Origin: Clostridia bacterium
GTDB taxonomy: Bacteria; Bacillota; Clostridia; Oscillospirales; Acutalibacteraceae
DNA length: 64,000 nt
Assembly (NCBI GenBank): GCA_017402845.1
Contig: JAFPLH010000079.1
Span: 1-64,000 of the forward strand
Reading direction: 5' to 3'
In this document: positions 1 through 13,125 of the stretch, one piece after another
Position numbering within the stretch: position 1 is the stretch's first letter
How the letters are laid out: every line of letters begins with the position of its first letter
Made by a program: the position numbers and the translations under genes
Notes under the pieces: model-generated
What the model saw: the letters and a program-made list of their open reading frames with translations, nothing else
What the model was told of the DNA's origin: nothing
Databases searched by the model: none

Positions 1-423
1 ACAGGAGAAATACGCATAGCAAACAAGCTGCTCTGCATGCCCTTTTCGGTTGAAAGCGTTATTACAGAGGGTAGGCACAACGGCAGAACGGTAGGTATAC
101 CTACTATAAATCAGAATCTACCGAAGCATTTTGTCACGCCGAGAAAAGGTGTGTATGCATCTTTTGTCATAATAGACGGCAAACGCTACGAAGCTATTAC
201 AAACATAGGAACACGCCCCACAGTCAGCGGTGATTCATTGAACATAGAAACACATATTTTAAACAATTATAACGACTGTATATACGGTAAAACCGTACGC
301 ACACAGCTTTTGGAATTCGTACGTGACGAACAGAAGTTTGACGATCTCGAAAAGCTGTCTGTACAAATAAAAAAAGACATTGAATACATATACAAAAACG
401 GTATATATAATCAGAATAAGTAA
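1..423 (+). CDS. ribF: riboflavin kinase / FAD synthetase, C-terminal part (cut by window edge)
   Basis: The frame is open from base 1 to the TAA at 421-423, so this is the 3' end of a gene that starts outside the window. What is visible is the riboflavin kinase domain of bifunctional RibF, which phosphorylates riboflavin to FMN in the cytoplasm. Family motifs seen are GRTVGIPT (canonical GRTIGFPT, flavin and ATP binding), TNIGTRPTV, and the IETHIL stretch that carries the catalytic-site glutamate. The FAD-synthetase half would lie upstream. The next gene begins 14 bases after the stop and may be cotranscribed. Confidence 0.93.
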   Translation, partial: TGEIRIANKLLCMPFSVESVITEGRHNGRTVGIPTINQNLPKHFVTPRKGVYASFVIIDGKRYEAITNIGTRPTVSGDSLNIETHILNNYNDCIYGKTVRTQLLEFVRDEQKFDDLEKLSVQIKKDIEYIYKNGIYNQNK

Positions 424-437
424 ATACGAGGTATACT

Positions 438-1607
438 ATGGCAGTAATAGAAAAGCAAAAAACAACAAAAACAGACCTTCCCCCTACAAGCGTTTCAGAG
501 AGTAAAAAAAAGATCCATAAAAAATTCTGGATATTTACCGCCGTGTATTTTCTTGTTGTGATTGTACTCAACATTTTAGCAAGAATAAAGGTGTTCTGCG
601 ATTTTTATACTGACCATATTTTCCGGATATGGGCTTATACCTACGGCAGACTTACAAGTCTTGCTCCGTTTTCTGTTGGTGAAATACTCGTAGGTTTTGC
701 GGTATGCACAGCTATTGCCGCAATTGTTATTTCTTTCTTGCTTATATTTTTGCGCAAAAGAAAACGATACGTAAAGTTCACTGTAACATACCTGAAATCG
801 TTTTTGATATTTCTGCTCACGATCGCACTTGTTATGACATTAAACTGTTCGATACCATACGGCTGCTCAAAGCTTAATATAAACGGTCATATCGACAAAA
901 AGTATTCTGTTAAAGAGCTTGAAATACTGCGAAGCTACATAGTTGAACAGTGCAACACACTTTGCGGCAAAATGGAACGTGACGAAAATCACTATATAGT
1001 AAAACAAGACAACATTGAGTCTGAGATAAAAGAAGCGCTGCGTTCACTCAAAGATGAATACCCTCGTTTCGGTGGATATTATCCTGATCCTAAAGGTATG
1101 TTTGGCTCATACTTTATGTATCAGGCAAATGTTATAGGCGTATATTTTCCGTTTTCTATGGAAGCAAACTACACAAAGTATCTTTCTTCTTCATATTATC
1201 CGAGTGTTGTTGCTCATGAGCTTACACATCTGAAAGGATATATGTTTGAAAACGAAGCAAACTTTTTTTCTTATCTTGCTTGTACAAGAAGTGATAACGA
1301 TTATATAAAGTATTCCGGTTATCTGTCTGTCTTATACTTCGTTGATGATGATTATAAAAATTGTGTTGATCCTGAAACTTATGCAAGTCAGGTGCAGGCT
1401 GCAAACAATGTTTTGTTTGATAACTACTGTTATGACGCACAGACAATAGAGTACCTGAAATCAAAAGAACACGCCGTTGACGATAAGGTGGTTGAATCGT
1501 TCAGTGATACTCTCACAGACACATATTTATCTTATTACAACGCCGAACCGAATTACGACGAAGTAACACTTCTGCTTTTGCAGTATTATGACGGAATTTT
1601 GTATTAA
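438..1607 (+). CDS. DUF3810-type membrane protein with HExxH metalloprotease motif
   Basis: A 389-residue protein with a basic N-terminus and three predicted membrane segments (about residues 29-49, 80-104 and 117-137), followed by an extracytoplasmic domain. Residues 260-264 read HELTH, an HExxH zinc-protease signature, and a nearby glutamate in ENEAN (about 273) could be the third zinc ligand. This arrangement is typical of the DUF3810 family, whose substrate is not known to me. It starts at ATG 14 bases after ribF and ends in a strong hairpin terminator. A peptidase role is inferred from the motif only. Confidence 0.8.
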   Translation: MAVIEKQKTTKTDLPPTSVSESKKKIHKKFWIFTAVYFLVVIVLNILARIKVFCDFYTDHIFRIWAYTYGRLTSLAPFSVGEILVGFAVCTAIAAIVISFLLIFLRKRKRYVKFTVTYLKSFLIFLLTIALVMTLNCSIPYGCSKLNINGHIDKKYSVKELEILRSYIVEQCNTLCGKMERDENHYIVKQDNIESEIKEALRSLKDEYPRFGGYYPDPKGMFGSYFMYQANVIGVYFPFSMEANYTKYLSSSYYPSVVAHELTHLKGYMFENEANFFSYLACTRSDNDYIKYSGYLSVLYFVDDDYKNCVDPETYASQVQAANNVLFDNYCYDAQTIEYLKSKEHAVDDKVVESFSDTLTDTYLSYYNAEPNYDEVTLLLLQYYDGILY

Positions 1608-1659: not shown

Positions 1660-3093
1660 TTACGGATTAGGCTGACGAAGTGCGTCATTATATACGTTGA
1701 TATAGTCGCTTGCAGATCTGTCCCAGCTATAATCGGTAGTCATAGCTCTCCAGATGAGCTTTATCCAACCATCTCTGTTCCAGTAACCGCCGATAGCACG
1801 ATTAACAGCACCAACCATATCCCATGTATCATAGTTACGGAAAGTAAATCCGTTGCCGTAGCCGTCCTGACTGTCGTGAATGGAGTCTTTAAGTCCGCCT
1901 ACCTCACGTACAACAGGAATTGTGCCATATCTGAGAGCTATCATCTGCGAAAGTCCGCAAGGCTCGCTCTTAGACGGCATAAGGAATATATCAGAACCGG
2001 AATAGATCTTTCTTGCAAGCTCGTTTACATAGCCGAAGCATGAGCATACTCTGCCCGGATATCTCCACTGGAGATTTCTGAAGAAGTCCTCATACTCTGC
2101 GTCACCGGAACCCAAGATAACGAACTGACAGTCATTATTCTGAAGAATGTTGTCGATACCGTCACGAACAAGATCAAGTCCCTTATGAGAAACAAGTCTT
2201 GAAACCATACTAATTATCGGAATATCTTCTCTCCTGTCAAGATTCAGACGCTCTTGAAGTCTTCTCTTACACTCGTTCTTGCCGTAGAGATTATCAGCCG
2301 TATAATTTGCATAAAGATGATAGTCTGTTGCAGGATCGTAGCTTGCGTTGTCGATACCGTTGAGAATACCGCAAAGCTTATAGTGGAAAAGATTAAGCGC
2401 TGTGTCAAGACCGTGACTGAACCACGGATCTTTGATCTCAAGAGCATAGCTCGGAGAAACAGTAGTAACCTTTGTTGAGCAAACAATTGCGCCCTTCATC
2501 ATGTTAAGCTTGCCGTCCTGATCGAGAATAGCGCCGTCCTGTGCAGGAATTCCGACAATATCTTCATTAAGATCCCAGCCGTATTTACCTTGATACTGAA
2601 TATTATGTATAGTAAAGATACTCTTAATATCATGATACCAACCGTTGCGGGAATAGAAAAGATAATAGTATGTCGGAACAAGTGAGGTCTGCCAGTCGTT
2701 GCAGTGGATTATATCCGGCTTAAAGTCAACATACGGAAGCATTTCAAGACAAGCACGGGAGAAGAAACAAAATCTCTCTGCGTCGTCATAGAAACCGTAC
2801 AAGCCATTTCTCTTGAAATAATACTCATTATCTATGAAATAATAGAGAACTCCGTTATAACGAGCCTCAAACACACCGCAATACTGATGACGCCAAGATA
2901 CCGGCACAGTAAAGCTTGTAATATAATGCATTGTGTCACGAAGGCTCTGAGGAATGTCCCCGTAAAGCGGCATTACAACTCTGCATCCGATCATTCTTTG
3001 ACGAAGCGCCTGCGGCAGTGAACCTGCAACGTCGCCCAATCCGCCCGAAGCGGCAAAAGGCTTTGCTTCGCTGGTACAAAACAATACTCTCAT
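1660..3093 (-). CDS. glgA: glycogen synthase (ADP-glucose dependent, GT5)
   Basis: A 477-residue GT-B glycosyltransferase that extends alpha-1,4-glucan chains from ADP-glucose. The N-terminal donor-site motif reads PFAASGGLGDV at about residues 12-22, so the usual lysine of KxGGL is alanine, as I recall for a number of clostridial GlgA proteins. The C-terminal motif PSKSEPCGLSQMIALRYG carries the E-x7-E-type site. Length fits the family. ATG start is preceded by AGGAGG. It is the last gene of the glgB-glgC-glgD-glgA series. A hairpin between glgD and glgA may reduce its expression relative to the upstream genes. Confidence 0.95.
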   Translation of the reverse strand: MRVLFCTSEAKPFAASGGLGDVAGSLPQALRQRMIGCRVVMPLYGDIPQSLRDTMHYITSFTVPVSWRHQYCGVFEARYNGVLYYFIDNEYYFKRNGLYGFYDDAERFCFFSRACLEMLPYVDFKPDIIHCNDWQTSLVPTYYYLFYSRNGWYHDIKSIFTIHNIQYQGKYGWDLNEDIVGIPAQDGAILDQDGKLNMMKGAIVCSTKVTTVSPSYALEIKDPWFSHGLDTALNLFHYKLCGILNGIDNASYDPATDYHLYANYTADNLYGKNECKRRLQERLNLDRREDIPIISMVSRLVSHKGLDLVRDGIDNILQNNDCQFVILGSGDAEYEDFFRNLQWRYPGRVCSCFGYVNELARKIYSGSDIFLMPSKSEPCGLSQMIALRYGTIPVVREVGGLKDSIHDSQDGYGNGFTFRNYDTWDMVGAVNRAIGGYWNRDGWIKLIWRAMTTDYSWDRSASDYINVYNDALRQPNP

Positions 3094-3190
3094 TTTTTAT
3101 TACCTCCTGAATTCAGACATAATATATCCGATATTATCTATGTGGCTTGCTATTCACATAAAACGCAAACCCTGTTTTTTGGCAAGCTCC

Positions 3191-3216
3191 AAAAGCCCGA
3201 AATCAAAGGGCTTTTG
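3191..3216 (-). terminator. hairpin between glgD and glgA, possible attenuator
   Basis: Stem AAAAGCCC/GGGCTTTT (3191-3198 and 3208-3215) just past the glgD stop. Read on the minus strand the 3' arm ends in TTTT, like a weak intrinsic terminator with its A/T tract inside the stem. It lies inside the glg operon, so partial termination is more likely than a full stop. Confidence 0.5.
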
Positions 3217-3230
3217 AAACTGCCTTTATA

Positions 3231-4349
3231 TTATACTACACTTTTCTTGGAAATGCAAACAGGATAAGAATCAATTCCGCACAACATACGTTTCGGATTT
3301 ACAACAACGTCTTTGTCGCATACAACAAAGTTCAAGGTTGTATCCTCACCGATATCGCAATCCTGCATTATAATACAATTGGACACCTTAGCACCCTTTG
3401 CAATACGCACACCCTTAAAGATAATGCTGTTTTCAACCTCGCCCTCGATCACACAGCCGGGGCTGATAAGCGAGTTTTTGACCTTGCTTTCAAGACCGTA
3501 CTTTGTGGGCATATCATCTCTTACTTTTGTATATATAGGATTTCTCATGTTAAACAGGTCTGCTCTTACATCAGCATTGAGAAGATCCATATTTGCTTTG
3601 AAGTAATTCTGAATAGTATCCAGCTCTGCACAATAGCTTGTAACCTCATAGCCATAAACCTTATGCTGTTTAACACACGGCTGAATAACATCTCTTGCAA
3701 AGTCATACTTACTGCGGCTCAGGCAGTCGTCAACAATATCAAGCAGGAAATCCTTCTTAACAATAGCCGTTCTTATCATACAAATGGTAGATTCCACACC
3801 GCGCGGATTTATAAGCACTTCTGAAACTCTGTTGTTAGAGTCAAGCGACAAAACAAGATACTCAGCCTGATTTACCTTGCTCAAAAATTCTTTGCGATAG
3901 CATACTGTAATATCTGCGTTATTCTTGAGATGAGCGTTAAACATCTGCTGATAATCTATATTAACAACATTCATTGAGCTTGAAATAAGCAGATAATCTT
4001 CGTAGCAGTTGTTGATAAAATCTCTTATAGAATCCATTGTCTGTACAAATGTATTATATTTGTCAGCGGTATTATCAAAAGGCGGCAGGAAAGTAAGTCC
4101 GCCTCTCCTTCTCGATAAGTTCCAAGCCTTACCTGAACCGATATGATCCATAAGTGACAAGTAGTTATTCTTCGTTACAACGCCGATCTTGCTTATACCC
4201 GAGTTGACCATATTGGAAAGCGAGAAATCTATAAGTCTGTATTTTGCGCCGAAAGGAACCGAACTGAATGTTCTGAGTGTAGTAAGCTCGGGAATGTAGG
4301 AATCCTGAAAGTTTGTGAGCAGTATGCCTGCCATATTTCTGCCTGCCAT
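3231..4349 (-). CDS. glgD: GlgD, non-catalytic-type ADP-glucose pyrophosphorylase subunit
   Basis: A 372-residue paralogue of GlgC. The nucleotidyltransferase fold is recognisable (KYRLIDFSLSNMVNSGI), but the catalytic GGxGxRL loop of GlgC is replaced by NFQDSYIPEL, as usual in GlgD. The C-terminal third has the left-handed beta-helix pattern (SPGCVIEGEVENSIIFKGVRI). In Firmicutes GlgD joins GlgC in a heterotetramer that makes ADP-glucose and alters its activity. Its ATG overlaps the glgC stop as TAATG, and the ribosome binding site AGGGGGTG lies inside the end of glgC, so the two are translationally coupled. Confidence 0.94.
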   Translation of the reverse strand: MAGRNMAGILLTNFQDSYIPELTTLRTFSSVPFGAKYRLIDFSLSNMVNSGISKIGVVTKNNYLSLMDHIGSGKAWNLSRRRGGLTFLPPFDNTADKYNTFVQTMDSIRDFINNCYEDYLLISSSMNVVNIDYQQMFNAHLKNNADITVCYRKEFLSKVNQAEYLVLSLDSNNRVSEVLINPRGVESTICMIRTAIVKKDFLLDIVDDCLSRSKYDFARDVIQPCVKQHKVYGYEVTSYCAELDTIQNYFKANMDLLNADVRADLFNMRNPIYTKVRDDMPTKYGLESKVKNSLISPGCVIEGEVENSIIFKGVRIAKGAKVSNCIIMQDCDIGEDTTLNFVVCDKDVVVNPKRMLCGIDSYPVCISKKSVV

Positions 4350-5563
4350 TACTTCACCCCCTTAATATCTTGGTCAATCATAGCCTTAGGTGCTACAACA
4401 GCGCCCTCGCCTATATTGAGATTTTCACCAATAACGGTAATGCCCCAGTCGTCACGGTTTTCAACCTCTTCGGGCTTAGCGCCTACTACGGAATTCTTAC
4501 CTATAACAGTACCCTCTGCAACAATAGCAAAGTTTACTTGTGCGCCCTCCTCAACAACAACGCCGGGGAACAAGATAGAGTCTGTAATAACAGCGCCCTC
4601 TTTGACGGTTACACCGTGGAACAGCATTGAGAATTCCAACGAACCGTATACATTACAGCCGTCTGCGATCATAGAGTTCTGAATATCTGCACAGTCTGCA
4701 ACGAAATGCGGCGGAAGCATGGGGTTACGAGAATAGATCTTGTTTTTCTTCTCTGTAAGGTCAAGCTTTGTTTTCGGATCAAGAAGATCCATATTAGCCT
4801 CCCAAAGGCTGTCGATAGTACCAACGTCTTTCCAGTAGCCCTCAAACGGATAAGCATACATCTTCTCGCCGTTTTCAAGCATTGCGGGCAATACGTTTTT
4901 ACCAAAGTCGTTCGAGCTGTTGGGATCCTGTGCGTCAAGAATAAGATACTTTCTGAGCTTATTCCAGCTAAATACATAAATACCCATTGAAGCGTTTGTA
5001 CTCTTTGGGTGAGCCGGCTTTTCTTCAAACTCATAGATAGATCCGTCAGGATTGGTATTCATAATACCGAAACGCGAAGCCTCCTCGAGCGGAACATCAA
5101 TAACTGCGATAGTACAGTCTGCGTTATGCTCTGCATGGAAAGAGATCATTTTCGAGTAGTCCATTTTATAGATATGGTCACCGGAAAGTATGAGTACATA
5201 CTCAGGATCATATCTTTCGATAAAGTTAATATTCTGATAAATAGCATTTGCCGTACCTGAATACCAGTTTGCACCATCTTTTTGCTCATACGGCGAAAGA
5301 ATATGCACGCCTGCGTTATCGTTGTCAAGATCCCAAGGCTGACCGTTTCCTAAATAATCATTCAATACAAGTGGCTGATACTGCGTGAGCACACCAACTG
5401 CTTCGATACCGGAATTGGCACAGTTGGAGAGCGGAAAATCTATGATTCTGTATTTTCCGCCGAAGGGAACTGCCGGCTTAGCGACTTTTCTTGTAAGTAC
5501 GCCGAGTCTGCTGCCCTGTCCGCCCGCAAGAAGCATTGCCACGACCTCCTGCTTTGGTAGCAT
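4349..5563 (-). CDS. glgC: glucose-1-phosphate adenylyltransferase (ADP-glucose pyrophosphorylase)
   Basis: Makes ADP-glucose and pyrophosphate from ATP and glucose-1-phosphate, the committed step of bacterial glycogen synthesis. Visible motifs are [30 protein letters not shown], the GTANAIYQN substrate loop and a C-terminal beta-helix with hexapeptide repeats. I start the protein at the ATG at 5563 (404 residues, MLPKQEVV...) because GGAGG sits 8 bases upstream; a longer frame to 5614 lacks such a site and adds 17 non-conserved residues. It follows glgB by 76 bases and overlaps glgD by one base. Confidence 0.95.
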
Positions 5564-5639
5564 AGTTAAGTCCTCCATTTCAATTTTTTCTGTATTATAG
5601 TTCACATAATTCAAGCATATAAAATCAGCTTAAAATAAG

Positions 5640-7901
5640 TTATTCGCCTTTTGAATCCTTTGCCGATTCTTTCTTATGCTTTTCAGAGTCGGCATCTTTC
5701 TCTTTGTCTTTACTTTCTTTCTCTTTATCTTTACTATCTTTGTCTGCTTTATCAGACTTTGATTTTTTCGACTGATGTTTTTTAGACTTTTCGCCTTTTT
5801 CTGTATTCTCTGGATCCTTTGCTTTTTCCTCTTTAACAGTCTTTAAGCTCTCTGATTTCGCAGTTTTCTTTTCAGCCTTTTTGATCTTTGTTGAACCCTC
5901 CGACTTTTTGTGTTCTTTTTTCTCGGCTTTATCGTGATCTTCTTTTTTCTCGTCCTTTGTCTTTTTCACGCACTTGAAATACATTACAGACAACGGGGGA
6001 ACAGTGATCGTAACAGAGTTTTCAAGCTCGTGACACTTTTTCTTTTTAGATTTGATCTCAACTCCGTTTGTAAAGCCGCTGCCGCCGTAGCCTTCGTTTT
6101 CGGTAGAGAATACCTCAGCGTAAACGCCTGCATACGGAACACCTACCATATATTCTTCACGAAGCATTGGCTGAAAATTACACACGATAATAAGCTCGTC
6201 GCCCTTCTTGTCAATTCTTCTGAATAAAAGAATAGAACGCTGATAATCGCTGTGGCATATCCACTGAAAGCCCTCCCATGAAAAATCGACTTCATACAAA
6301 GGCGAATTTTCTCTGTAAAAGCGGTTCATATCTCTGAAAAATGCCTGAAGCTGCTTATGTGTATCGTAGTCAAGAACCTCCCAATCGAGCTGCTTCTGAA
6401 AATTCCACTCGTCGAACTGTCCTATTTCTGCGCCCATAAACGTAAGCTTTTTGCCGGGGTGAGCCATCATATAAGCGATAAATGTCTTTACGCCGGCAAA
6501 TTTCATATTATAGTCGCCGGGCATTTTGTTCATAAGCGAGCATTTGCCGTATACTACCTCGTCATGACTGATAGGAAGCATAAAGTTTTCACTGAATGCA
6601 TAAATAAGCGAAAACGTCAGATTATCGTGATGATATGGTCTGTAAATCGGATCAAGAGCCAGATAGCGCATCATATCATTCATCCAGCCCATATTCCACT
6701 TAAAGCTGAAGCCCAGACCGCCGGTATCGGCAGGACGTGAAACCATCGGGAACGCCGTAGACTCCTCTGCGATCATCATATTACCGGGGAACAGCTCATA
6801 ACATGAAGTATTAAGCTTTCTCAAGAAGTCAATAGCCTCAAGATTCTCTTTGCCGCCGAACATATTCGGACACCATTCGCCGTCTTTTCTGTTGTAGTCA
6901 AGATAAAGCATTGAAGCGACCGCATCAACACGAATACCGTCAATATGGTATTTATCCATCCAGAACATAGCGCTTGATATCAAGAAGCTTACCACTTCAT
7001 AACGGCTATAATTGAATACAAGTGTACCCCACTCTTTATGTTCGCCCTTTCTCCAGTCCTCATACTCATAGCAGCACGTACCGTCAAAGCGTATAAGGCC
7101 GTGAGAATCTCTCGGAAAATGTGCAGGAACCCAGTCAAGAATAACGCCCAGACCTGCTTTATGAGCCTTGTTTATAAGGTACATAAAATCATGCGGTGTA
7201 CCATATCGTGAGGTAGGAGCATAATAACCGGTAACCTGATAGCCCCATGAGCCGTCGAAGGGATATTCCGTAAGTGGCATAAACTCAATATGAGTATACC
7301 CCATATCGGCAGCATACGGAACAAGCTCGTCTGCAAGCTCGATATAGCTTAAAAAGTCGCCGTTGTCTTTTTTTCTCCACGAGCCCGCATGAACCTCATA
7401 GACATTTACAGGCTTATCGTTATATATACTTGGTTTTTGTCTGATATCGTTCTCGTCATCGGTATTGCGAGCCTTTGCAAGAGATCGTTTATTTTCAAGC
7501 CAATCGTCGTCTTCCCATTCAAAGCCCTCAATATCATAAAATTTAGAAGAGTTGCTCGGACGTGTTTCAAAATGGAACGCATAGGGATCAGATTTATATA
7601 AACGCTCTCCCCACTGAGTATCTATACAGTATTTATAGTTATCGTACTCGTTTACCACATTAGGAATAAAGCACTCCCATACACCTGCTTCGCTCAGCTT
7701 GCCCATTGGATTTGCCTCGGGATTCCAGTAATTGAAATCACCCACTACCGATACTTGCGCAGCATTGGGCGCCCACACGCGAAAAACCACGCCAAGCTGA
7801 CCATACATATATGACCTGTGCGCACCTAACAGATCGTATGCCCTGACACTGCTGCCCGAGTGAAAATCATCCAAAAGGCTTTGTACAACGCTGTCTATCA
7901 T
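5640..7901 (-). CDS. glgB: 1,4-alpha-glucan branching enzyme with Lys/Glu/Ser-rich C-terminal tail
   Basis: GH13 branching enzyme: N-terminal CBM48-type domain (VWAPNAAQVSVVGDFNYW), then a TIM barrel with nucleophile Asp in GIRVDAVASMLYLDY, acid/base Glu in MIAEEST and region IV LPISHDEV. It introduces alpha-1,6 branches in glycogen. The start chosen is the ATG at 7901, with GGGAG 10 bases upstream; a TTG at 7952 would add 17 residues. The last 108 residues (bases 5640-5966) are an unusual low-complexity tail of Lys, Glu, Asp and Ser that follows the normal C-terminal beta domain and has no counterpart in typical GlgB. First gene of the glycogen operon. Confidence 0.95.
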   Translation of the reverse strand: MIDSVVQSLLDDFHSGSSVRAYDLLGAHRSYMYGQLGVVFRVWAPNAAQVSVVGDFNYWNPEANPMGKLSEAGVWECFIPNVVNEYDNYKYCIDTQWGERLYKSDPYAFHFETRPSNSSKFYDIEGFEWEDDDWLENKRSLAKARNTDDENDIRQKPSIYNDKPVNVYEVHAGSWRKKDNGDFLSYIELADELVPYAADMGYTHIEFMPLTEYPFDGSWGYQVTGYYAPTSRYGTPHDFMYLINKAHKAGLGVILDWVPAHFPRDSHGLIRFDGTCCYEYEDWRKGEHKEWGTLVFNYSRYEVVSFLISSAMFWMDKYHIDGIRVDAVASMLYLDYNRKDGEWCPNMFGGKENLEAIDFLRKLNTSCYELFPGNMMIAEESTAFPMVSRPADTGGLGFSFKWNMGWMNDMMRYLALDPIYRPYHHDNLTFSLIYAFSENFMLPISHDEVVYGKCSLMNKMPGDYNMKFAGVKTFIAYMMAHPGKKLTFMGAEIGQFDEWNFQKQLDWEVLDYDTHKQLQAFFRDMNRFYRENSPLYEVDFSWEGFQWICHSDYQRSILLFRRIDKKGDELIIVCNFQPMLREEYMVGVPYAGVYAEVFSTENEGYGGSGFTNGVEIKSKKKKCHELENSVTITVPPLSVMYFKCVKKTKDEKKEDHDKAEKKEHKKSEGSTKIKKAEKKTAKSESLKTVKEEKAKDPENTEKGEKSKKHQSKKSKSDKADKDSKDKEKESKDKEKDADSEKHKKESAKDSKGE

Positions 7902-7977
7902 AGTATGCACACTCCCTTTTGCCGTTAATTTTTGATTATTTGCTTTTTTCAATTACAAATTCCAAATATACATATAT

Positions 7978-8550: not shown

Positions 8551-9711
8551 TCAGTATAAAACAACAATTTCCCCTTTGACCTCGCAGCGAGCCTGAAAAA
8601 CGTCCTTCAAGCCAAGTGCGCTGTCATAAACAGCAGCATATTTTTCCTTAGAATCAGCCTGACTGTCAGCGATAATATACCTGTCCTCAATACAGCTTCT
8701 GATCTCTCCGATCGAATCAGGGTACGTAATACTAATATCCGTGCCTACCTCGCCGTTCAAGCTCCATTCATCGTTATTATGCGTTAATAAATATATTTTA
8801 CCCTTTTCTTTGTCGGTATAATATTGGGAATATTCGTCATACTTTTTCACACGAGCCAGGGTGCGAATTTTTCCGCCTTCCATGGGAATAGCGCAAAAAT
8901 GCTCTCGTTTATGCTTATAGGAACAGCCTCTGAAAACAATATCGCCGCTGCAAATGCACTCAAACCGCACTGTACCGTTAGAACCAGCCGTAGCAACACG
9001 TTTCAGTTTAATATTCCTTTCTCCCGCTTTTACCTGATCTAAAAATTTATTCTTACGCACCAACCAAATATTATCTCTTATTTCTTCAGTTTCGCTGCCA
9101 AGCTCTTTTACAAACGCTTCCTTTTCTTTTTCCCCCGAAAAGGGATCGTTCAAAAGCATATACTCTCTGCCGCCGCTGAAAAACTTTATCATGTTATTTT
9201 TCACAAGCAGAGCAGTATTAAAGTCCTTAATAAAGTATCTTATGTTTTTGTCAAGATCATAAAGATTCGCCAAAGAATCGCTGTTTGTCTGCTCCAGACA
9301 TCTGTTGAACAGTCCCTTGTATTCCTCGTCTGACTTTGTATATACAATTATATTGCTATCGTCTAATGCAACACATTCTGAGAAGCGTCCCACCAAAGAA
9401 ATACTCTTTCGGTAGACCTCCTCGCCCGTAGCTTTATCTACTTTAATAACCCAGACCTTACCCGAACCGTTTTCAAACAGTATGATAATACTGTTTTCAC
9501 ATGAATAAAAGTGCTGAATATAAGCTGCGTCCTCAAAAGAAAAACACGACAAAAGCAGCTCGGAACTCTCAGAAAAACTGTAACTGTATAGATAAACCGA
9601 ATCAACGCCGTTGATTTTCAGTTCCTCCGCATAAAAAATAAAATCATTGGTAATTTCGATTATCTCGATCTTTCTTTTATAAAGCTCATCTCTGAGATCT
9701 ATGACTGTCAA
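8551..9711 (-). CDS. hypothetical protein, possible beta-propeller
   Basis: About 386 residues, not recognised. No signal peptide or membrane segment. The sequence is made of many short hydrophobic beta-like strands, some followed by turn patterns such as VDKATGEEVYRKS that recall PQQ/WD-type propeller blades, so a cytoplasmic beta-propeller is possible but unproven. The start is uncertain: I place it at TTG 9711 (GAGGTG 6 bases upstream), because a frame extending to TTG 9759 runs through a TATAAT box. It lies 92 bases downstream of the kinase-fold gene, and its 3' end is closed by a strong terminator. Confidence 0.6.
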   Translation of the reverse strand: MTVIDLRDELYKRKIEIIEITNDFIFYAEELKINGVDSVYLYSYSFSESSELLLSCFSFEDAAYIQHFYSCENSIIILFENGSGKVWVIKVDKATGEEVYRKSISLVGRFSECVALDDSNIIVYTKSDEEYKGLFNRCLEQTNSDSLANLYDLDKNIRYFIKDFNTALLVKNNMIKFFSGGREYMLLNDPFSGEKEKEAFVKELGSETEEIRDNIWLVRKNKFLDQVKAGERNIKLKRVATAGSNGTVRFECICSGDIVFRGCSYKHKREHFCAIPMEGGKIRTLARVKKYDEYSQYYTDKEKGKIYLLTHNNDEWSLNGEVGTDISITYPDSIGEIRSCIEDRYIIADSQADSKEKYAAVYDSALGLKDVFQARCEVKGEIVVLY

Positions 9712-9803
9712 GTCTTTCACCTCACTTCTTTTTATAGTACAGCCAACATTATACCTCAAACACTATAAACAGATTGTCACAAACAGTCGAACAAACAAAA
9801 AAA

Positions 9804-10919
9804 TCAATACTCAGGCCAGATCAATTTTGTATCGGGGAAGCCGACTCCGAAAAATGAACCCAGCGACAAACAGATCGTACTTTTTCTGTCAGAAAAATTC
9901 AAAGCGAATGCAGTTCCGTCATGAATAAGCTTAATAACAACGTCTTTTCTCAGCTCGCCTGAAAGATCCCAGTAAAGGCACTCTGCATAATTCGAGCCTA
10001 ATGCAGAAAGCTTTGCATAACCGCTTCGCTGATCGTTGATAACACCGTCTACCGTATAACTTGCTATTGATATAACTATCTCTCTGTTAGGCTCTATGCC
10101 TGTTTGCTCTTTTGCGGTCTTGTAGGTATCCTTAATTGCCTTAAGCAGCAGCTTATGAAGAAGCTTTGCTTGTTTTAAGGTTTCTTCTTCGCTTAACATT
10201 TCCCAATCCATATACTGTGACAAATAAGGATCAAGCGTTTTTACATCTGTAATTTCTCCGGCACACTTAGTTACATAGCTTCTTTTGATATTTGTCTGAC
10301 CGAAGTCCATAACAATATTTACTCCGTTTTTCTCTGAGATCTGAGTTGCACACCCATAAACACCGGCAACAGCAGAATTCTCATAAAGCAAAATGTTATA
10401 AGGTTCTTTGTGAGCAAGCTCAAAAACATTTTCAATCTCTTGTTTAAAGATTTTTCCGATATTTCCGCTTGCTAAGCCTCCAACAAGAGCGATATCCTCT
10501 ATCTGAGCCCAATAAGCCCAATGCTCGTCTGTCCAATCCTTGCGAGCATCTCTGTTTTGTTTCTCGCCCAATCTCAGCGCAAGAAACAAAAGTCCGAGCC
10601 TTTTTCCGAATTTCCGAGCTATCTGTATAGCACATTCCGACGCTTCACTGTCGTCAGAGGATAACTTTTCGGCAAGCTTTATAGGCAGACGTTTTTCTGT
10701 TTCTTTATCCAGTTCTATTTTGAGTGTATCGGCATTTTTCTTTATTTCATCTATAAACAATTGTGTATTAAAAAATTCTTTGACTGTAAGTCCCTCTATA
10801 CTATCGTCAACACCGTATATAGGAAGCTTTTTTATCATCAGTCTGTTTATCGAGCAGTCAGAGCTTACGTAATCAGATCTTTGATTATCTTCTAATCTGT
10901 GTAAAAAGGGATTTTTCAC
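9804..10919 (-). CDS. ASKHA/ROK-fold sugar-kinase-like protein with permuted motif order
   Basis: A 371-residue protein with actin-like ATPase (hexokinase/ROK) motifs in an unusual order. Residues about 85-195 look like the C-terminal end of a ROK kinase: a long helix, then IALVGGLASG (adenosine loop, 145-153) and ENSAVAGVYGCA. Only after that comes the phosphate-1 loop MDFGQTNIK (204-212), which is normally at the N-terminus. The chain ends with HDGTAFAL (about 334-341) and SLGSFFGVGF (352-361), like the connect-1/phosphate-2 region. Starts at GTG with AAAGGAG upstream. Sugar phosphorylation is inferred from fold motifs only; the substrate is unknown. Confidence 0.65.
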   Translation of the reverse strand: MKNPFLHRLEDNQRSDYVSSDCSINRLMIKKLPIYGVDDSIEGLTVKEFFNTQLFIDEIKKNADTLKIELDKETEKRLPIKLAEKLSSDDSEASECAIQIARKFGKRLGLLFLALRLGEKQNRDARKDWTDEHWAYWAQIEDIALVGGLASGNIGKIFKQEIENVFELAHKEPYNILLYENSAVAGVYGCATQISEKNGVNIVMDFGQTNIKRSYVTKCAGEITDVKTLDPYLSQYMDWEMLSEEETLKQAKLLHKLLLKAIKDTYKTAKEQTGIEPNREIVISIASYTVDGVINDQRSGYAKLSALGSNYAECLYWDLSGELRKDVVIKLIHDGTAFALNFSDRKSTICLSLGSFFGVGFPDTKLIWPEY

Positions 10920-11112
10920 GATACTTCTCCTTTCTTTAAATGTTTTTCATAAAGCAAATTTATCTCAATATTATTACATATAGTCAGTACGATTCTTTAT
11001 GTATACTTAAAAATATACACAAATATATAAGCACATTATAATATATACAGACATTTTTATCAATAATTTTTTTGTAATTATCAAAAGATTTACAATTTGA
11101 AAACATTTCCGT

Positions 11113-11150
11113 AAACAAAAAATCTCCTTTCTTGTTACAGAAAGGAGATT
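11113..11150 (-). terminator. rho-independent terminator
   Basis: 11-bp stem AATCTCCTTTC/GAAAGGAGATT (11121-11131 and 11140-11150) with an 8-base loop and a T-rich tail on the minus strand, just beyond the surface-protein gene ending at 11166. Confidence 0.88.
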
Positions 11151-11165
11151 TTGCTGATAAACTGA

Positions 11166-11921
11166 TCAAGAATATCTTAATTTTCTCTTTGCTTTTTTTG
11201 TAGATATTATAACAAAGATAATAACAAACACAGCAGAAACTATAAGAGTACAGCCCAGATAAAGCATCCATGTAATAGACGTATCGCCGGTTTGTTCATT
11301 GTTTTTGATGAAATTAAATGTTTTAGTACCGTCGTCTGAAACCTTGCCGTTTTCAAGAGAAAGCATGATCGTATTCCAATCATCAGCAGACAATTCATCT
11401 GTATCAATAACCTTGCTGCTGGCGTCGATCAGGTTTTCAGTCGGAGCAGTATATTCGGGCACATAATAATAGTTATCGTCATAATAAGCATTATAGGTAT
11501 TCTCAATATACTGGCTTGTATAGTCAATATAAGCATTATAAGACTCTACCGGATACTCATAATAGTAGCTGTTATAATCGTTATAGCTGTTCACACCGGG
11601 ATCAACAGGCTGATTATATCCGCCGTTATCGGTATCGTAAACGGGTGTATTGGGGTAGTCGGTATAATCACTAACCACCGGATCAGGTGTTGGATCGACA
11701 TATATCGGATCCGGATCGGGTGCAACAGGATCAGGCGCTGCGGGATCAGGTACTACCGGATCGGGTACAACAGGATCAGGCTGCACACCGGGGTCTACCA
11801 CAATATCTTCATCACCCGATATTCTGTAAAGATTTTCGGCTGCAACGCCTGAAAAGCAGGCAATAGAACCGAGAAAGCAAAGTGCAGAAAAAACACACAG
11901 CAATCTCATTTTCAAAGACAT
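11166..11921 (-). CDS. proline/tyrosine-rich surface protein with C-terminal anchor
   Basis: A 251-residue secreted protein of unknown function. A signal peptide covers residues 1-28. Residues about 42-82 are a PDPVVPDP-type repeat (rigid, wall-spanning stretch); 85-160 are rich in Tyr, Asn and Asp. The C-terminus has NNEQTGD (207-213), then a hydrophobic segment (217-240) and the basic tail KKAKRK. That order resembles a divergent sortase signal (xQTGD instead of LPxTG), but a plain membrane anchor is equally possible. GGGGGA precedes the ATG. It follows the PrsA-like lipoprotein gene by 31 bases, so the two are probably cotranscribed. Confidence 0.7.
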   Translation of the reverse strand: MSLKMRLLCVFSALCFLGSIACFSGVAAENLYRISGDEDIVVDPGVQPDPVVPDPVVPDPAAPDPVAPDPDPIYVDPTPDPVVSDYTDYPNTPVYDTDNGGYNQPVDPGVNSYNDYNSYYYEYPVESYNAYIDYTSQYIENTYNAYYDDNYYYVPEYTAPTENLIDASSKVIDTDELSADDWNTIMLSLENGKVSDDGTKTFNFIKNNEQTGDTSITWMLYLGCTLIVSAVFVIIFVIISTKKAKRKLRYS

Positions 11922-11952: not shown

Positions 11953-13125
11953 TCACGATTTGTCTTTCTTAAACATATTCGGTTTGAATTTTTTCAGTAT
12001 TGTATCATTCTTTTCAACGCTCAAACCCTTTGCATACTCTAAAAGATAGTCTTCATACTCGTCCTTCTTCATTTCGTTAAGCAAAGAATAATGTGTATAA
12101 CCACTCTTGAGGTCATAAATATAAGTACCTGCTGTGGGAGTATCTGCTGTTGCGGCAGTATCATTTATCTGAACTGAAGCAGTGCTGTCTGTATCATCTT
12201 CGGCAGGCTCTTTAAAGTCTATTATAGACTCATTTGTCGGTCTGTATACAAAGTAATACATGGTAGTAGCGTCTTCGCCTGTTTTGATAAATGTTGCCTT
12301 GCCCTCGTCAAGCTTTGCCAAGGCCTCAGAAATTTCGGGAGTAAGTCTGTTATCGTCAAGCTTTACAGCGCCTGATGAAGTAGGATCAGTTGTAAGCTCA
12401 TAATCCTTAGTATACTGGAGAACAGTATCTTTATAAGTCTTACCGTCCTTATTTATCATATCAACATATTCTGCAAATGACGAGTCAGCTTTTTTAAACT
12501 CCTCCTCGCTTTTTGCAACGGAGTTACCCTCTTCATCAGTTTCAGCCATGCTCAATGCAAAGTATGCATAGCCTGTATAATTATCGTTGAAATACTTTAT
12601 CATTTCTTCATCAGTAGTATACTTTTCGCCATTCTTGCCGTAAAGATACTCAAAAACCTGACCATGCTTTACGCCGTACTCAGCATAGCAATAGTTAAAG
12701 CTATCCTGTGAAATGCCGTAGCCTGTAAATCTGTCTTTGATATTTCCCCACATCTGATCTGAATAAGTCATTACAGTTTTATAGTCAGACTCAGCAAGCT
12801 CCAGACCGTAATCCTTAAAGAGCTTTTCAACAGCGATCATTCTCAATGTCATTGCGTCTGCGCCGTCAAGTGAATACTGCTCTACTGTTTTTTTGTTGCC
12901 GTCGCTGTCTTCGACCTCAGCTTCAAGAATCTTCTTTACCTCGTCGGCACTTTCGACCTTGTCCTCTGCTTCATAATATGAAGTAAGAAGATTATAGATG
13001 TATGTTCCTGCTGTAAGAGATACATCACCCGATCTGTAAGACCAGCTCTGATCGCCACAGCCCGAACCCGCAGCAAGCATTAATGCTGCAAGTGCTGCCG
13101 CAGCAGCTCTTTTGATATTTTTCAT
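11953..13125 (-). CDS. PrsA/SurA-like lipoprotein (putative extracytoplasmic foldase)
   Basis: A 390-residue lipoprotein: basic N-terminus, hydrophobic core and a lipobox ending GSGC (Cys23), so it should be tethered outside the membrane. The following region is helix-rich, with a SurA_N/trigger-factor-like pattern, and the middle part could correspond to a PPIC-type domain, though I do not see its strongest motifs. A gene of this kind directly after mfd is common in Clostridia. It has its own promoter, and is followed by the Pro/Tyr-rich surface protein gene, a plausible client. Confidence 0.7.
   Translation of the reverse strand: MKNIKRAAAAALAALMLAAGSGCGDQSWSYRSGDVSLTAGTYIYNLLTSYYEAEDKVESADEVKKILEAEVEDSDGNKKTVEQYSLDGADAMTLRMIAVEKLFKDYGLELAESDYKTVMTYSDQMWGNIKDRFTGYGISQDSFNYCYAEYGVKHGQVFEYLYGKNGEKYTTDEEMIKYFNDNYTGYAYFALSMAETDEEGNSVAKSEEEFKKADSSFAEYVDMINKDGKTYKDTVLQYTKDYELTTDPTSSGAVKLDDNRLTPEISEALAKLDEGKATFIKTGEDATTMYYFVYRPTNESIIDFKEPAEDDTDSTASVQINDTAATADTPTAGTYIYDLKSGYTHYSLLNEMKKDEYEDYLLEYAKGLSVEKNDTILKKFKPNMFKKDKS

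Follow-up and report, generated by a model that had tools for sequence, protein, structure and literature searches.

Can the chain of an ASKHA protein be rotated in nature while its fold is kept? ASKHA proteins (sugar kinases, actin, Hsp70 and FtsA) depend for their action on the closure of two lobes around ATP and, to our knowledge, the chain order is fixed in every known member; nor can we name any ASKHA example of natural circular permutation. The question is raised here by a single gene on the minus strand (9804..10919) of the window, by which is meant the whole stretch of 64,000 nucleotides of clostridial DNA that was analysed. The open reading frame is present just as a first-pass annotation had described it, and encodes a protein of 371 amino acids from a GTG start codon, with the stop codon at 9804-9806. 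A Shine-Dalgarno sequence, AAAGGAG, lies 7 nt upstream (10927..10933, this and all other features of the window being on the minus strand), beyond which are found a promoter-like site, TTGATA-17-TATAAT (11035..11063; 11 of 12 positions, by consensus match only), and, between the gene and its upstream neighbour, a terminator-like hairpin (11119..11152), likewise a consensus match only. The two upstream genes encode a 251-aa protein with a DP-rich repeat region (11169-11921) and a 390-aa lipoprotein-like protein (11956-13125), both without a Pfam match.

The ASKHA superfamily is marked by its PHOSPHATE-1, PHOSPHATE-2 and ADENOSINE motifs (PMC1079889), and their occurrence in that linear order is a habit of the known members rather than a definition. 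The protein of the window and its relatives break with this habit, the order being ADENOSINE, PHOSPHATE-1, PHOSPHATE-2. From the N-terminus, sequence and family alignment place the ADENOSINE motif, LVGGLASG, at residues 145-152 (10464..10487), one residue ahead of the 146-153 at which it was originally reported, and the stretch ENSAVAGVYGCA at residues 180-191. There follow the PHOSPHATE-1 motif DFGQTN (residues 205-210; 10290..10307), the catalytic-Asp region HDGTAFAL (residues 333-340; 9900..9923), in which D334 aligns with the catalytic Asp of ROK kinases, and the PHOSPHATE-2 motif SLGSFFGVGF (residues 352-361; 9837..9866), the two phosphate motifs being located by sequence, alignment and hhalign. 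In other words, all the motifs named at first reading are there, with small shifts of coordinate. An additional signature of the family, RxDWTDEHWxYWA (residues 126-138; 10506..10544), has no counterpart recognised in ROK proteins.

Both the motifs and their order are conserved. The PHOSPHATE-1, PHOSPHATE-2, ADENOSINE and catalytic patterns are found in 29/29 family members, including D.G.[TS] in every one, and across these 29 homologues from three phyla the invariant residues are G147-G148-L149, D205, G207, K212, R213, H333, D334, T336, A337, G354, G358, G360 and F361. The possibility that the GGLASG match is a chance one, which had been raised at the outset, is therefore answered by the invariance of G147-G148-L149. 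The order ADENOSINE, PHOSPHATE-1, catalytic Asp, PHOSPHATE-2 is likewise that of every aligned homologue (29 of 29; a motif-order regular expression mis-scored one member, which is regular in the alignment), while a pattern scan of ROK kinases from the same bacterial order puts PHOSPHATE-1 first and ADENOSINE last. Moreover, the comparison with the nearest orthologue gives a dN/dS of ~0.13 (dN 0.152, dS 1.19), from which the gene family, as judged by its codons, is under purifying selection.

The relatives themselves were found with an alignment as query. A first scan of GTDB genomes with the single protein gave no relative; the alignment query gave 31 loci, including one in a cultured isolate, Kineothrix alysoides (L050), and members in a Spirochaetes MAG and an Anaerolineae MAG with 27-32% identity. 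Complete members are ~350-380 aa long, and nearly all keep an N-terminal start M-x-NPF. Within the genus the gene is the rule, being found in 19/21 other genomes in a first sample, which also contained it in 3/39 genomes of the bacterial family outside the genus; family-wide sampling gave 21/398 genomes, a class-level sample 3/391, and a phylum-wide sample of 398 genomes none except the genome of the window itself. Plasmid and phage records contained no relatives at 1e-5. Another family of the class contributes the locus L113 (1516-2616), with the same motif order. This is the most divergent of the Clostridia members; it is without the N-terminal NPFL, and DFGHTFVKAG replaces DFGQTNIKRS. In one genome (G011) the permuted gene is split across two contig ends (L023 and L024) and resembles two fragments. 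The sequences thus describe what is a real and conserved family of proteins from gut- and rumen-type bacteria. That the motif order is an artefact of mis-assembly, frameshift or a chance reading frame has a negligible likelihood, for although the window and most of its relatives are probably metagenome assemblies, the reading is refuted by the homologues, which have the same order in independent assemblies, in the isolate genome of K. alysoides and in three phyla, with the low dN/dS pointing the same way.

Whether the rotated motifs reflect a rotated fold was addressed with AlphaFold2, which from the 29-member family alignment returns a confident model (mean pLDDT 92.8, pTM 0.88). In this model residues 199-347 form one complete RNase-H-like domain, beta1-beta2-beta3-alpha-beta4-alpha-beta5-alpha, and so residues 198-347 (9879..10328) are assigned to a complete domain I by the model, VIA and hhalign. 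Residues 1-197 (10329..10919) contain helices and the adenosine strand (142-146) and finish with a strand (175-178) and a helix; a beta1-beta2 hairpin is missing from them, and two strands (348-353, 357-360) instead make a short hairpin at the extreme C-terminus. The lack of a hairpin in the one and its presence at the other end are, in the prediction, what would be expected of a domain II cut between its hairpin and the rest. Accordingly, residues 1-197, by modelling of the fragment and VIA, would constitute most of domain II, the equivalent of the C-terminal half of a ROK kinase, and residues 348-371 (9807..9878; model and VIA) would be its PHOSPHATE-2 beta-hairpin, placed at the C-terminus by permutation.

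In the VIA alignments of the full model, residues 197-367 correspond to the N-terminal half of the chain in ROK kinases and in hexokinases: residues 199..367 fall on 0..150 of 3r8e (Z 9.8) and 198..367 on 406..559 of 2yhw (Z 11.8), with the N-terminal half of 2qm1 (0..157) also matched (Z 9.5). When residues 1-197 are folded alone (pLDDT 89.2), residues 1..197 fall on 145..300 of 3r8e (Z 10.0, 147 aligned, rmsd 3.2), and further matches are to 229..393 of 1z05 (Z 9.1), 165..361 of 3mcp (Z 8.7) and 141..301 of 4db3. Indeed, the best 25 rows are all of ROK-type proteins, matched at their C-terminal halves; Foldseek with this half alone gave no match at E < 0.001, and it is by TM-score and VIA realignment that the ROK entries stand out. 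The two stretches of 3r8e that are matched, 0-150 and 145-300 of its 301 residues, complement one another and come in reversed order; the predicted fold is thus circularly permuted.

The sequence profiles tell of the two halves unequally. Aligned by hhalign with a profile of 29 ROK proteins, family residues 199-359 fall on ROK 10-152 with a score of 38, the paired motifs (family/ROK) being DFGQTN/DLGGTN, HDGTA/NDANA and SLGSFFGVGF/TLGTGVGGGI. Residues 198-371 alone score 38.8 against 16.1 +/- 2.6 for shuffled columns (maximum 23, z 8.8). The C-lobe half is best placed at ROK 229-321, which is the right place, with GGL opposite GGG, and scores 21.0 against 15.6 +/- 2.7 for shuffles (z ~2) and 18.9 for a reversed control. 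Profile-profile support is hence strong for the N-lobe half and weak for the C-lobe half, such that the case for the C-lobe rests on predicted structure. Nor did sliding the point of rotation in local-mode hhalign bring out the C-lobe, since the N-lobe carries the whole score. Rotation does lengthen the alignment with the ROK kinase of the same genome, from 155 columns in native order to 291 for the permuted profile, these 291 being obtained at an accuracy threshold of zero and at the same raw score as the native alignment. Similarly, the Pfam ROK match goes from E 0.019 in native order to 4e-4 for the best member among 13 that were permuted, a modest gain between member sets that differ; the two members that lie furthest out have no Pfam match after permutation. 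No match came from the PDB with either the native or the permuted profile, and nothing useful from single-sequence searches of Pfam, NCBIfam and the PDB, the window protein being unrecognised by Pfam and NCBIfam models; an NCBIfam acyl-CoA synthetase match (E 0.038) and rows for thiamin pyrophosphokinase were set aside as noise.

A different account of the same chain would have no permutation at all, but an ordinary two-domain ASKHA protein with residues 1-197 as a degenerate domain I and 198-371 as domain II, the motifs arising from the pseudo-symmetry of the fold. In its favour, alignments that run in sequential order over both halves can be made to actin, FtsA, PilM and pantothenate kinase (Z 9-10, rmsd close to 4). 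Against this, residues 198-371 specifically match, in sequence (z 8.8) and in structure, the N-terminal half of ROK and hexokinase chains; the order DFGQT, HDGTA, LGS..GVG is that of PHOSPHATE-1, catalytic Asp and PHOSPHATE-2 in ROK; and residues 1-197, taken alone, resemble ROK C-terminal halves. Moreover, a normal two-domain order could not use the terminal hairpin at 348-360, which would be surplus, and would leave residues 1-197 without a beta1-beta2 hairpin of their own; this is counted in favour of the permuted fold. The unpermuted account is consequently considered very improbable. The reading preferred here is that the ROK-type sugar-kinase order has been circularly permuted in nature, with the break just after PHOSPHATE-2, inside domain II; on the predicted fold, a probability of about 0.9 may be attached to it. 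This is the permutant that the first-pass annotation had proposed, and both the comparison of the predicted fold with ROK kinases and the conserved order bear it out; the position of the break after PHOSPHATE-2 stands, with the refinement that the cut is inside domain II and that the hairpin (348-360) forms the C-terminal end of the protein.

It is less straightforward to say whether the protein belongs among the ROK kinases. With the caveat that the structure is predicted, it has the two RNase-H-like domains and intervening nucleotide cleft of the ASKHA fold, from the AlphaFold2 model and the VIA alignments of both halves. The features listed for ROK kinases are DxGxT, a strictly conserved catalytic Asp, ExGH, CxCGxxGC and sugar kinase activity (PMC5458393). 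Of the four sequence signatures two are present: DxGxT is found in 29/29 members, and the catalytic Asp is the invariant D334, aligned with the Asp of the ROK NDA. The sugar-contact motif ExGH is found in 0/29 family members as against 28/28 ROK controls, and the zinc motif CxCGxxGC also in 0/29, the ROK controls in this case having been selected for the motif. Some true ROK kinases are without the zinc site (PMC5458393), and so it is the missing ExGH that is the stronger objection to membership. From the absence of both motifs the window protein is described as ROK-like and is not filed under ROK; the original label of 'ROK/ASKHA kinase' is more safely put as a ROK-like ASKHA fold. Given the same absence, something other than an ordinary hexose may be the acceptor.

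A working mechanism would be that of a two-lobed ASKHA-fold phosphotransferase in which the ancestral termini have been joined at about residues 195-198 and new termini opened just after the PHOSPHATE-2 hairpin of domain II. ATP-Mg would sit in the cleft that domain I (199-347) forms with a re-assembled domain II (348-361 together with 1-197), its phosphates held by D205-G207-T209 and the G354-G360 hairpin and its adenosine by G147-G148-L149, with D334 as the putative base that activates the acceptor hydroxyl. From the intact nucleotide motifs and the invariant D334 it may be argued that the protein carries out ATP-dependent phosphoryl transfer, and on the model an active kinase is probable.

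For the acceptor, recourse must be had to the gene neighbourhood. Directly downstream of the kinase-like gene is that of a 402-aa companion without a Pfam match (8554..9759), followed by glycogen synthesis genes (1663..7952), namely glgB (5643-7952, by Pfam) and then glgC-, glgD- and glgA-like genes by sequence. The companion is single copy in the genome and directly downstream in 16/17 testable same-genus loci, such that it is a possible functional partner of the permuted protein; in these loci glgB comes next and usually, where the contig continues, glgC, glgD and glgA. Outside the genus, a gene for a pullulanase-like protein is directly downstream in two loci (L044, L045), and the Kineothrix locus has a GH3 glycosidase nearby. 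In some other loci long frames with weak GlgB similarity follow the gene. The pullulanase-like protein of L045 (11230-15231), which adjoins the permuted gene, has 1334 amino acids with CBM48, CBM26 and dockerin. The neighbours of the Anaerolineae and Spirochaetes loci are unrelated to sugars, and those outside the genus vary, including H+-pyrophosphatase, DNA ligase with RlaP, and aminoacyl-tRNA synthetase. In five loci of other genera (L043-L045, L047, L048) an ABC ATPase and two ~275-aa proteins precede the permuted gene, the latter two being, in L045, ABC-2 family permeases (PF06182).

The glycogen-operon and pullulanase neighbours suggest a sugar as acceptor, a proposal that is slightly favoured; a guess from the same neighbourhood is that the acceptor would most likely be a hexose or small glucan tied to glycogen or starch turnover. 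An ordinary ROK kinase is also encoded in the genome, and the permuted protein therefore need not serve as a plain glucokinase. The foremost of the other explanations, with odds not far short of even, keeps the permuted ASKHA fold and gives it another task, be it to sense a ligand, to partner another protein as an ATPase, or to phosphorylate an acceptor that is not a sugar. The missing ExGH and CxCGxxGC motifs, a catalytic loop of HDG as opposed to NDA, the variable neighbours outside the genus, the ROK kinase already present and the companion that travels with the gene within the genus all lend it weight. On the other side are the retention of all nucleotide motifs and of the catalytic Asp, which is unusual for a dead sensor, the existence of ROK kinases free of the zinc site (PMC5458393), and the sugar-related neighbours, be they the glycogen operon of the genus, the pullulanase-like proteins or the Kineothrix GH3 glycosidase.

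As to origin, the occurrence of the same break in three phyla suggests that the rearrangement happened once, long ago, and may since have been transferred horizontally. Circular permutations usually come about by tandem duplication followed by loss of the outer parts, and such duplication and trimming would fit the family. A search for an unpermuted parent with the permuted profile in 60 related genomes gave no close relative in unpermuted order, the matches being split ones to the permuted genes themselves and one at E 0.04. A fuller picture, given an even chance, would be of an ancient permuted ASKHA family, common to Clostridia, Spirochaetes and Chloroflexi, whose two termini lie at the PHOSPHATE-2 loop, with a new acceptor site replacing ExGH and zinc and a substrate from storage-glucan metabolism. 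No report of natural circular permutation in an ASKHA protein was found in full-text searches of one open-access library (with few subscription papers and no bioRxiv), and papers on acetophenone carboxylase and caprolactamase do not mention permutation. With both ends of its chain at the PHOSPHATE-2 loop, such a natural permutant provides a test of which chain connections are needed for lobe closing, and the family allows study of how such rearrangements arise, as by duplication then trimming. Moreover, permutation explains why domain searches, in which linear order is assumed, miss this conserved gut and rumen family, and searching with rotated profiles may bring to light further enzymes that are now without annotation.

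In comparison with known systems, there is a precedent for chain order being changed around the active site of a kinase, namely the segment swap that relates ADP-dependent glucokinase to KDG kinase (PMC2213659), which differs in having a ribokinase-like fold unrelated to ASKHA, and in being local where the present case would be a whole-chain circular permutation. The hexokinases (PF00349; human hexokinase I, yeast and plant) share the N-lobe, matched at residues 197-364 with Z 9-11, but are longer and not permuted. Foldseek ranks the tandem hexokinase I first, which is what a chain of order B-A would give when laid over a duplicated A-B-A-B protein; this alignment across both halves has an rmsd near 32 and is suggestive only. 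The nearest likeness is to the ROK sugar kinases (PF00480; for example 3r8e, 2yhw, 4db3 and 2qm1), with which both lobes, by predicted structure, and the DxGxT, catalytic Asp, GT/GS..G.G and GG motifs are held in common; the family differs from them in its rotated lobe order, without a significant Pfam match in native order, and in its extra RxDWTDEHWxYW segment before the adenosine strand. The fold is a familiar one, and its chain order appears to be new.
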